DNA of 40,348 nt from Lachnospiraceae bacterium (GTDB taxonomy: Bacteria > Bacillota > Clostridia > Lachnospirales > Lachnospiraceae): assembly GCA_017500935.1 (NCBI GenBank), contig JAFVXW010000052.1, forward strand, positions 1-40,348, read 5' to 3'. Made by a program: the position numbers and the translations under genes. Below, piece by piece: positions 456-2,186 of the stretch. Within the stretch, counting starts at the first letter, position 1; the number at the start of each line of letters is the position of its first letter. The notes beneath the pieces are model-generated. The model saw nothing but the letters and a program-made list of their open reading frames with translations, did not search any database and was not told the DNA's origin.

Positions 456-489
456 AAGCTCTGAAAACACTAGTTTTCAGAGCTTTTTT
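456..489 (+). terminator. rRNA/tRNA operon terminator
   Basis: A perfect 13-bp stem (456-468 with 473-485), a four-base loop and a run of six T follow tRNA-Cys by nine bases. This closes the rRNA-tRNA transcript. Confidence 0.92.
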
Positions 490-509: not shown

Positions 510-538
510 TTGACATACAATTTAACCGGTGATACAAT
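510..538 (+). promoter_or_regulatory. sigma-A promoter for the aspS leader
   Basis: TTGACA at 510-515 and TACAAT at 533-538 are separated by exactly 17 bases. Transcription should start near 545, giving an untranslated leader of roughly 190 nt before the attenuator terminator at 690-736. Confidence 0.85.
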
Positions 539-570
539 TACGTCACAAAATTCCAGAGGGGTGTCTGATA

Positions 571-618
571 ATGATGAACAATCAATTTCAGAAACTGAAT
601 AGGGACGACGATAAGTAG
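571..618 (+). CDS. aspS leader peptide, 15 aa, Asn- and Asp-codon rich
   Basis: The ORF reads MMNNQFQKLNRDDDK then TAG. A Shine-Dalgarno AGAGGGG lies at 555-561, nine bases before the ATG. It has three Asn codons (577-582 and 598-600) and three consecutive Asp codons GAC GAC GAT (604-612). The stop codon sits exactly where the first hairpin of the attenuator begins (618). This layout matches leader peptides of amino acid attenuators, in which a ribosome short of charged tRNA stalls on the regulatory codons. Here the regulated gene is an aspartyl-tRNA synthetase. The ORF, its SD and the hairpins are seen directly; the sensing role is inferred. Confidence 0.78.
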   Translation: MMNNQFQKLNRDDDK

Positions 619-736
619 CGTTTGTATCTGTGAGCAGTCATAGGTACAAGCGCTTAATGTGTTGTGCCTATGTGGGATATATGAAGCATAAACCACATTG
701 GTAAGGAATTATATACTTTGCCTGTGTGGTTTTTTT
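618..736 (+). promoter_or_regulatory. Transcription attenuator of aspS (ribosome-mediated)
   Basis: Four mutually exclusive helices can be drawn. Helix 1:2 is a 16-bp hairpin, 618-633 with 638-653. Helix 2:3 pairs 639-649 with 662-672 (11 bp). Helix 3:4 pairs 665-675 with 693-703 (10 of 11) and acts as the antiterminator. Helix 4:5 is the intrinsic terminator: 690-697 with 725-732 and 700-706 with 716-722, then T 730-736. If the ribosome stalls on the Asp codons, strand 1 stays free, so 1:2 and 3:4 form and aspS is read. If it reaches the stop codon it covers strand 1, so 2:3 and the terminator form. The parity is right for induction by low Asp-tRNA. No T-box motif (GGTGGNACC) is present. Confidence 0.8.
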
Positions 737-790
737 GTACCTTTCTTTTTGGGGTTCCATGCGGGTATATTTTTGGAAGAAGGTGATCGT

Positions 791-850
791 ATGGGACATA
801 AAGACGATGTTCTTATGGATGGAGATTATCCGGAGATAAGGAGATGTTGA
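791..850 (+). CDS. Possible second small ORF (19 aa, Asp-rich) before aspS
   Basis: The ORF MGHKDDVLMDGDYPEIRRC lies between the attenuator terminator and aspS. An AAGGTG SD-like site precedes its ATG by six bases. Four of its 19 codons are Asp. It ends 22 bases before the aspS start. It could be a translated upstream ORF that adds a further layer of control, or a chance ORF. No homologue is recognised. Confidence 0.35.
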   Translation: MGHKDDVLMDGDYPEIRRC

Positions 851-872
851 ACAAAACAGAAAGGATAAGATC

Positions 873-2186
873 ATGGAAAAATTTAAGAATGAAAATATTG
901 GTATAAATGAAGTGGAAGCAGAAGAATTGGCAGGACATATCGGAGAAGTGGTGCGGCTTCACGGCAGTATTTATAAGATACGAAAAATGAAAAGTTTTTC
1001 ATTTGTACTGCTGAGAACCAAAAGGGATGTGGTTCAGTGTGTCACATCAAAGGATTTGGAGATTCCAATGGAGGAAAGCTGTGTGATCTTGTCAGCAAAG
1101 GTGGTGGAGGATAACAGAAGCAGAGTCGGATATGAGCTGCAGATTGAAACAATTGAGGTCTTGAGCAGTCCTCAGGAAATTGCCCCCATTGTGATCAATC
1201 AGAAAATAGTAGACACTTCCATCGAAAATTTACTGGATTTCAGACCTATAACGCTGCGGAATGAGAAAGAAAGGGCGATTTTTAAACTGCAGGAAGGTAT
1301 TTGCAGAGCCTTTCGTGAATTTTTGTACCGTGAAAATTTTACGGAGATCCACACTCCCAAGATCGTACAGTCGGGTGCAGAGGGCGGTGCTAATATTTTT
1401 AAGTTGGACTATTTCGGGCAGGAGGCATATCTGGCGCAGAGCCCGCAGTTTTACAAGCTGATGATGGCGGGCGTTTTTGAACGGGTATTTGAGATCGCAC
1501 CGGTGTTTCGGGCTGAAAAGCATGATACTTCAAGGCATTTGAATGAGTATACGAGTGTGGATTTTGAGATGGGTTTTATCAGCAGTTTCCGGGAGATTAT
1601 GGAGATGGAAACTGCCATGCTGCAGTATACAATGAAATATTTGGCGGAAAATTATGAAAAAGAACTGACGCTGTTGAATCTGACGCTGCCGGTGATTGAA
1701 AAGATTCCTTCCGTTACTTTTCGGGAAGCAAAGGTAAAGGTGGCAGAGGCTTATAAGAGAACGGTAAAGGATTGGGAGGATTTTGAACCGGAGGAGGAAA
1801 AACTCTTATCGGCGCTGATTTTACAAGAAACAGGAAGCGAGTTTGTTTTTGTGACACATTATCCGAGCGAAAAAAGGCCGTTTTATGCGATGGAAAATAA
1901 GGACAATCCCAATGAAACGGAAAGTTTTGACTTATTGTTCCGGGGACTCGAAATCACCACAGGCGGCCAGCGCATCCACGACTATCAGGAGCAGGTTGCA
2001 AAAATGCAGCGGAAAGGTATGAATGTGCAGTTATTTGAAAGTTATCTTATGATGCATAAGCATGGGATGCCGCCCCACGGAGGATTGGGGCTTGGACTGG
2101 AGAGGTTCACCGCCAGGTTGCTGGGCTATGAGAATGTGAGGTATACGACACTGTTTCCGAGGGATATTAAGAGGCTGGTGCCGTGA
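873..2186 (+). CDS. aspS: Aspartyl-tRNA synthetase, archaeal type
   Basis: A class II aminoacyl-tRNA synthetase of 437 aa that charges tRNA-Asp with aspartate in the cytoplasm. An N-terminal OB-fold anticodon-binding domain (about 15-110) is followed by the catalytic core. Motif 2 is seen in the FRAEKHDTSRHLNEYTSVDFEM stretch (about 218-239) and motif 3 near the end (GLGLGLERF). The length and the IHTPKI, AQSPQ and GMPPHGGLG blocks match the short archaeal AspRS rather than the roughly 590-aa bacterial form. Many such enzymes are non-discriminating and also make Asp-tRNA-Asn for GatCAB. At two positions I recall as deciding this, Tyr replaces the Trp/His and Arg replaces the Lys/Pro, so specificity cannot be called. 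It is preceded by its own promoter and attenuator. Confidence 0.93.
   Translation: MEKFKNENIGINEVEAEELAGHIGEVVRLHGSIYKIRKMKSFSFVLLRTKRDVVQCVTSKDLEIPMEESCVILSAKVVEDNRSRVGYELQIETIEVLSSPQEIAPIVINQKIVDTSIENLLDFRPITLRNEKERAIFKLQEGICRAFREFLYRENFTEIHTPKIVQSGAEGGANIFKLDYFGQEAYLAQSPQFYKLMMAGVFERVFEIAPVFRAEKHDTSRHLNEYTSVDFEMGFISSFREIMEMETAMLQYTMKYLAENYEKELTLLNLTLPVIEKIPSVTFREAKVKVAEAYKRTVKDWEDFEPEEEKLLSALILQETGSEFVFVTHYPSEKRPFYAMENKDNPNETESFDLLFRGLEITTGGQRIHDYQEQVAKMQRKGMNVQLFESYLMMHKHGMPPHGGLGLGLERFTARLLGYENVRYTTLFPRDIKRLVP

Follow-up and report, generated by a model that had tools for sequence, protein, structure and literature searches.

A probable leader-peptide attenuator with aspartate codons ahead of an archaeal-type aspartyl-tRNA synthetase gene in Lachnospiraceae, and related leaders with other codon runs

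Introduction

What switches on an archaeal-type aspartyl-tRNA synthetase gene in a bacterium of the Lachnospiraceae? Synthetase genes of the Bacillota are the home ground of T-boxes (RF00230), elements that sense tRNA charging, control synthetase genes and take their specificity from one codon. The stretch of DNA analysed here (the window, 40,348 nucleotides, contig 36 of the 3.56 Mb source assembly) carries such a gene, aspS2, and its named relatives in a protein search of public genomes are for the most part Lachnospiraceae. No T-box match reaches the Rfam gathering score in the window and none is present in positions 480-900 at E values up to 5, while elsewhere in the source genome 10 T-box matches reach E 0.001 or better, five of them above the gathering score.

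A preliminary description had attributed control of the gene to a leader peptide with Asp codons, and had stated that its author knew of no described Asp leader of such a kind. The latter statement holds among the titles and abstracts listed from the open PMC literature (few subscription journals, no preprints), where no Asp or Arg synthetase leader in Clostridia was found. Classical attenuators are known at trpS and leuS in Streptomyces, and a 2005 survey, in its accessible part, states that no Firmicutes synthetase is under classical attenuation (PMC1262725). In Bacilli, histidine leader peptides have been predicted ahead of hisZ and of a hisS paralogue (PMC2965389), and His attenuators have likewise been predicted in the his operons of the B. 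cereus group, Peptostreptococcaceae and Erysipelotrichales (PMC9413887), as far as the accessible parts of these papers go; on the former account, Bacillota already offer a partial precedent for leader peptides before synthetase-like genes. The evidence that we present is computational throughout.

Results

Layout of the locus

The end of a 23S rRNA gene and tRNA-Asn, -Glu and -Cys genes (tRNAs by ARAGORN) come first. The predicted elements behind them are listed below, with the basis of each in brackets.

456..489, + strand: probable terminator ending the rRNA/tRNA-Asn-Glu-Cys unit upstream (from the sequence: inverted repeat plus T run)
510..538, + strand: sigma-A type promoter TTGACA-17-TACAAT (11/12 consensus bases plus TG; promoter scan)
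571..618, + strand: leader ORF1, MMNNQFQKLNRDDDK and stop (SD AGAGGGG immediately 5'; 15 codons, ends RDDDK)
604..612, + strand: regulatory Asp codons GAC GAC GAT (sequence; codon conservation)
599-610/660-671, + strand: helix 0:3, the Asp-codon segment with segment 3 (folding, duplex folding)
617-633/638-654, + strand: helix 1:2 (duplex folding, pair counts)
639-653/659-672, + strand: helix 2:3, anti-antiterminator (duplex folding, pair counts)
665-675/693-703, + strand: helix 3:4, antiterminator (duplex folding, pair counts)
691-706/716-731, T tract 730-736, + strand: intrinsic terminator 4:5 (sequence, duplex folding, pair counts)
775..788, + strand: Shine-Dalgarno of ORF2, very strong (duplex -19.0 kcal/mol)
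791..850, + strand: ORF2, MGHKDDVLMDGDYPEIRRC and stop, a second conserved small ORF with Asp at 5 and 10 (locus comparison)
794..812, + strand: covarying hairpin in ORF2, GGACAU / AUGUUC (pair counts, 19 sequences)
873..2186, + strand: aspS2, archaeal-type aspartyl-tRNA synthetase, 437 aa (NF003483, 546 bits, cut-off 353)

The promoter is the same site that the preliminary description had picked out as a consensus promoter, found here by a scan so loose (1.5 sites per shuffled region) that by itself it is no evidence. The 15-codon leader with its SD and Asp codons was recovered as ORF1, which has two in-frame ATGs, at 571 and 574, and its stop codon at 616-618. Duplex folding puts helices 1:2, 2:3 and 3:4 and terminator 4:5 within a few bases of where they had been drawn, and helix 0:3 and the conserved ORF2 are additions to that scheme. 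A simple terminator scan did not list 4:5, because its loop has 9 bases (the limit being 8) and its stem an internal mismatch. The region 540-760 folds at -81.5 kcal/mol, versus -51.0 +/- 3.9 for shuffles (z -7.9; 0/200 shuffles as good). The encoded AspRS2 lies above the curated cut-offs of both NF003483 (546.2 versus 353 bits) and TIGR00458 (377.4 versus 368.4 bits). By eye, the ORFs neighbouring aspS2 differ between 11 loci, except among L013, L036 and L038.

Conservation of the Asp codons

Forty-three leaders were collected with DDD as the anchor, hence its presence in 43/43 is true by construction; independent tests are provided by the 17 best-scoring AspRS loci of the family and by 12 matches of an RNA model, R1, that lie outside its training set. 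A DDD leader was present in 17/17 of these best-scoring loci with sequence retrieved. Across the 43 leaders GAC and GAT are exchanged at the three Asp codons in 1, 7 and 1 cases, as expected of a coding sequence, and the peptides differ in length, N-terminus and stop position, the residues preceding DDD being far more variable than DDD. The window holds an SD-bearing short ORF whose codons match the amino acid of the downstream gene. Two genomes have the DDD leader before a bacterial-type AspRS as well, an argument for Asp as the amino acid that is sensed. The earlier proposal that Asn might be sensed as well is weaker, with Asn at position -2 in 29/43 leaders.

Long insertions inside the leader are seen at L012, L058, L061 and L069, those of L061 and L069 separating segment 3 from segment 4; the remaining attenuator parts are readable in all four.

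Covariation of competing helices

Pair counts were taken from an alignment of 25 leaders, A1. Standard pairs make up 89.7% of helix 1:2 (8 pairs changed on both sides), 94.3% of 2:3 (5), 88.0% of 3:4 (3), 94.0% of terminator 4:5 (9) and 90.5% of 0:3 (1), and slid controls reached at most 48.5% paired for 1:2, 2:3, 3:4 and 4:5, or at most 53.8% with 0:3 included. The doubly changed pairs of 3:4 and 0:3 are not above shuffles, which reached the same numbers in 136/500 and 289/500 cases respectively; the changed cells and covariation score of 3:4 are above them (2/500 each). The comparison that the preliminary description had called for, namely conserved Asp codons and helix covariation in relatives, thus bears it out: mutually exclusive antiterminator and terminator helices covary, 3:4 being the weakest. 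The most telling site is column 77 of the alignment, an A/G in segment 3. It covaries with columns 2 (third base of codon -2), 47 (segment 2) and 145 (segment 4) as C-C-G-C versus U-U-A-U in the order 2, 47, 77, 145, within helices 0:3, 2:3 and 3:4, so that a single base retains a partner in each of three helices that exclude one another; column 145 pairs in terminator 4:5 too. Acetatifactor-type leaders have a different sequence in segments 2 to 5 and by eye keep such pairings; A1 is gapped in their segment 4 at some 3:4 and 4:5 pairs.

Ribosome position and the predicted switch

Transcripts ending after segment 4 were folded with 13 nt masked as the ribosome footprint, starting where the A-site codon starts. 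With the first Asp codon in the A site, the weight of 3:4 exceeds that of 0:3 and 2:3 together in 25/25 leaders; with the second it is dominant in 20/25, with the third in 13/25 and with the ribosome at the stop codon in 0/25. When the footprint is varied from 10 to 16 nt, a ribosome at the first Asp codon leaves 3:4 in 20-25 of the 25 leaders and one at the stop codon in 0-3. In silico, the position of the ribosome would therefore set the structure in the right direction. A stall at codons -1 to -4 has the same effect on segment 3, freeing it in 24-25 of 25 leaders. The earlier claim of readthrough only upon a stall on the Asp codons is consequently too strong in the model. Because upstream stalls work equally well there, specificity rests on codon conservation: in these foldings the RNA by itself is predicted to give no specificity for Asp, and it is the conserved codons that do.

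Without a ribosome, 3:4 is dominant in 11/25 leaders, and 0:3 is predicted to favour termination in about half of them. Helix 0:3 is thus a plausible off state for an untranslated ORF1. Taken without a ribosome, the parity argument of the preliminary description would predict readthrough, a gap that 0:3 narrows without being dominant in all leaders.

Leader and T-box divide the AspRS relatives

The protein search of public genomes yielded 39 loci, of which 19 have a DDD leader (L001-L015, L033, L036-L038) and 16 have T-box sequence, recognised by pattern in 14 and by eye in L032 and L035. Cultured strains are among the leader-bearing loci, namely Lacrimispora xylanisolvens DSM 3808 (L010) and Acetatifactor muris DSM 23669 (L038). 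Neither is present at L017, which was matched from residue 88 on, or at L030, and L034 and L039 come without upstream DNA. Within the family, 126/397 genomes encode a relative of AspRS2 at E 1e-80 or better, and 29 loci of these besides that of the window were inspected upstream. The best 17 (L055-L071; at least 537 bits, 59-72% identity) all carry a DDD leader, and the next 12 (L072-L083; at most 532 bits, 55-59% identity) all carry a T-box motif.

A tree was built from the 63 of 71 loci with a usable ORF (62 distinct), with labels assigned by simple patterns. A branch with 100/100 support splits 26 rows (25 T-box, 1 unlabelled) from 36 rows (32 leader; L064, L199, L034 and L017 unlabelled). 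L064 and L199 are labelled 'none' yet carry a leader, L034 is cut by a contig end, L017 is without a leader, and L032 is labelled 'none' yet has a T-box by eye. Both regulators occur together in five of the inspected genomes (L009/L035, L010/L021, L033/L027, L008/L024 and L011/L022).

The scaffold with other codon runs

R1, built on 25 Asp leaders, gave 23 matches of at least 54 bits in 397 family genomes, 11 of them training sequences. The other 12 comprise one NNN leader and 11 DDD leaders before AspRS genes, nine archaeal-type (L128 broken) and two bacterial-type (L121, 689 bits, and L122, 706 bits; NF001750, cut-off 443). Seven of these 11 were already in the protein search, and L121, L122, L127 and L128 are new. 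The NNN leader, L123, reads LNGNNN (AAC AAT AAT); the gene behind it encodes a 5'-methylthioadenosine nucleosidase (185 bits, cut-off 169). Weaker R1 matches include Arg-run leaders, two of three before argS, and one His leader before hisG. Nine weak matches (27.5-35.4 bits) hold one His leader (L134), two apparent remnants with a terminator (L135 and L137) and six that were rejected as leaders, being plain hairpins or terminators. In L128 (genome G164) aspS2 lies in two pieces, and the leader and ORF2 appear intact; in L135 and L137 a 4:5-like terminator remains, in L135 with ORF2 too, and the first leader seems to be lost.

Across 398 phylum genomes R1 found no match above 30 bits outside the source genome, and a second model, R2, was therefore built with the Arg, His and Asn leaders added. 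Inspection of 18 R2 matches from the same 397 family genomes revealed 12 leaders, eight of them with Arg, one with His and three ahead of GNAT genes, and no recognisable leader in the other six (L184-L187, L189, L190); many further R1 and R2 matches are mirror images on the opposite strand or fall outside the inspected set. The Arg leaders now total 11, eight of which precede argS (L124, L126, L173-L177 and L179; TIGR00456 over cut-off). In the stretch examined behind L125, L178 and L180 no argS was found: a BlaR1-type peptidase gene is downstream of L125 and a methyltransferase-domain gene downstream of L180, whose run, ERREEERRLL, reads as if selection for Arg codons had relaxed. In masked folding, 10/11 Arg leaders give up 3:4 in favour of 2:3 as the ribosome nears the stop codon. 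The exception, in which 3:4 is not left at the stop codon, belongs to the source genome:

79971-80123 of contig 62 of the source genome, + strand: L173, Arg-codon leader MSIFFSNSLRRREERRKLL and stop, before argS (R2)

A further His leader, L183, also stands before hisG. L181, L182 and L188 have a related scaffold, with leaders MYMYDGRICL / MYRHNCRLNGL, before GNAT acetyltransferase genes (L181 and L188 by a test of the protein, L182 by eye).

A search of the class with R2 gave matches at E 1e-4 or better in 13/386 genomes, the source genome included, and the 13 loci outside it divide into two DDD, three NNGYN and eight His-run leaders. The DDD leaders, L195 and L199, precede an archaeal-type AspRS ORF, and both are in the tree. 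L191-L193, from one genus outside the family, have in 3/3 cases the run NNGYN, not DDD, before bacterial-type aspS (L191 by test, L192 and L193 by likeness). By eye, a decayed ORF2 lacking its ATG is apparent at these three loci. Runs of three or more His codons were read at L194, L196, L197, L198 and L200-L203, that of L198 by eye and with no start codon listed. Six of the eight precede a hisZ-like gene, as judged by TIGR00443 for L194 (over cut-off) and L198 (227 bits, under the cut-off of 272), by PF13393 for L197, L200 and L202 and by sequence only for L196.

Except for the Arg and GNAT-gene leaders, the runs consist of NAY codons (Asp, Asn, His, one Tyr). NAY codons are read by queuosine-type tRNAs; the bias may only reflect single-base steps between such codons.

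What unites these leaders? Outside the codon run they have sequence and helices in common, as seen in the alignment, R1 and R2; the terminator of the His leader does not align (2/12 pairs). The bases shared outside the run suggest that the Asp, Arg, His and Asn leaders have a common descent, and together they look like an attenuator family whose codons have been exchanged.

A second small ORF with Asp codons

ORF2 was found between the terminator and aspS in 34/43 loci by a filter that requires Asp at 5 and 10. Its pattern is M/V-x-[HQ]-x-D-x-[VA]-x-x-D, and the window peptide begins MGHKDDVLMD. The filtered scan did not find it in nine of the 43 loci, which keep ORF1 (two before bacterial-type and seven before archaeal-type aspS). 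An Asp-blind scan of the 43 loci for SD sites of -14 kcal/mol or better detected a strong SD in 35; 27 of these are ORF2 in frame, 27/27 with Asp 5 and 10, and the other eight are six starts just beside ORF2 in another frame, one at aspS and one unrelated. The median SD duplex is -19.0 kcal/mol for ORF2 versus -9.3 for aspS (33 loci). Asp 5 is written GAC in 20 and GAT in 14 loci, Asp 10 GAT in 31 and GAC in 3, and codons 4, 8 and 9 are variable. In 19 sequences, a 6-bp hairpin over codons 2-8 has 94.7% of cells paired, and at three of its six pairs both sides have changed.

We considered translation attenuation by ORF2 and set it aside, as folding with a ribosome is not supportive: in the 22 of 33 loci used, the mean openness of the aspS start is 0.57 when free, 0.62 with the ribosome at Asp5, 0.69 at Asp10 and 0.72 at the ORF2 stop. 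A hairpin at the ORF2 start codon was likewise rejected as a general feature (7-bp pairing in 20/34 loci, where 20 shuffles average 11.2 and reach at most 16), and may be real in a subset. Our guess on the part played by ORF2 is that a ribosome parked at its strong site might shield or hold the read-through mRNA while Asp-tRNA is low.

Discussion

Based on these observations, we propose that the leader in these gut Lachnospiraceae is a ribosome-mediated transcription attenuator of aspS2 that responds to Asp-tRNA, a reading to which we assign a probability of about 90%. The sequence itself displays the ORF with its conserved codons, the covarying and competing helices, the promoter, the gene and the split between T-box and leader; stalling, readthrough and the physiological signal are what we infer. 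When Asp-tRNA(Asp) is ample, the leading ribosome would reach the stop codon at 616-618 and cover segment 1, whereupon 2:3 would form and transcription would end near 736, at terminator 4:5. A shortage of Asp-tRNA(Asp) would stall the ribosome on the codons at 604-612; helix 1:2 would then leave segment 3 available for pairing with segment 4, the terminator would not be made and aspS2 would be transcribed. In the absence of a ribosome, the Asp-codon segment itself could pair with segment 3, favouring termination in about half of the leaders. As part of the same reading, the scaffold would belong to a clostridial family in which the codon run is exchanged to suit the gene (Asp, Arg, His, perhaps Asn). 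A wider proposal appears rather probable to us, though less so than the attenuator itself: that Clostridia possess modular, homologous leader-peptide attenuators, which reuse one scaffold, its codon run swapped between Asp, Arg, His and perhaps Asn, and have moved between unrelated genes; that the helix between codon run and segment 3 can shut the gene if translation fails; and that aspS2, through ORF2, has a two-stage sensor of Asp-tRNA.

Could another signal set readthrough? A general stall near the DDD codons gives the same structures in masked folding, which leaves room for a stall that depends on the nascent peptide or on an antibiotic, as at the erm, mef and bmrCD leaders, in place of Asp-tRNA starvation. 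Three leaders with a related scaffold do precede GNAT acetyltransferase genes, and Vecchione and Sello (2010), going by the title of their paper, describe an auxiliary, antibiotic-resistant TrpRS gene under ribosome-mediated attenuation. We nevertheless hold such a stall to be improbable, since the residues ahead of DDD vary far more than DDD and the swapped runs match the gene's amino acid in most Arg and His leaders. An unrecognised T-box, or another riboswitch that binds tRNA or a metabolite, is suggested by the T-box motifs ahead of the sister AspRS clade. Conservation of ORF1 as coding sequence and the lack of a T-box match, at the gathering score in the window and at E up to 5 in 480-900, in a genome that has 10 elsewhere make it very unlikely. 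Among sub-threshold Rfam matches, the only kind obtained at E up to 5, the trpB ncRNA motif RF04312 resembles the leader in its hairpin-then-terminator layout; at 28.4 bits for 637-741, versus a gathering score of 59, the leader was rejected as a member, and RF04312 is over its cut-off in 0/10 genomes.

ORF2 might also be taken as the main sensor, with the hairpins upstream of it acting as a plain terminator that stops transcripts reading through from the rRNA/tRNA unit. This reading draws on the stronger SD and the two conserved Asp codons of ORF2, and meets three difficulties: the nine of 43 loci that keep ORF1 and in which ORF2 was not found, the covariation of the competing helices of ORF1, and the terminator that the upstream unit seems to own. 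We consider it very improbable as well.

How does the attenuator compare with known systems? Like E. coli his and pheST and Streptomyces trpS and leuS (PMC1262725), it would combine a leader with regulatory codons, mutually exclusive helices, a terminator and a gene for the matching amino acid. Unlike classical attenuators, the leaders described here appear specific for Asp or Arg, occur in Clostridia on one scaffold for several specificities, and have the extra helix 0:3 from the regulatory codons and, downstream, a second Asp ORF. They resemble the Bacillota His leaders in predicted leader-peptide attenuation, one of those being placed at a synthetase paralogue; the accessible parts of the two papers deal with His only and describe no scaffold common with Asp or Arg leaders (PMC2965389, PMC9413887). 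The contrast with T-boxes lies in the reader: the Asp leader, which has no T-box match, would be read by the ribosome, whereas a T-box binds tRNA directly without translation. A family in which one scaffold is reused with different codons would be the first that we know of.

What are the implications for control of synthetase genes? In the home ground of the T-box, the tree divides AspRS paralogues into a side that uses T-boxes and a side that uses leader peptides, and five of the inspected genomes have both, so that the replacement of one tRNA-charging sensor by another can be studied directly. If our proposal is true, the scaffold would be a modular, translation-based counterpart of the T-box, with ribosomes doing the T-box's job.

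The source genome also encodes a bacterial-type AspRS (869 bits), beside an ORF that by eye resembles hisS, and an AsnRS, and gave no match for GatB in an assembly about 95% complete; aspS2 is thus an extra AspRS. A non-discriminating AspRS of the transamidation route would have GatCAB as partner, which was not found in the source genome, and although the protein family is named 'aspartate--tRNA(Asn) ligase', such a role is unlikely there by gene content. An attenuator that responds to Asp-tRNA would suit a reserve enzyme that is called upon once the main AspRS fails. At L030, unlike in the source genome, the archaeal-type aspS lies directly behind an ORF that by eye resembles the end of gatB.
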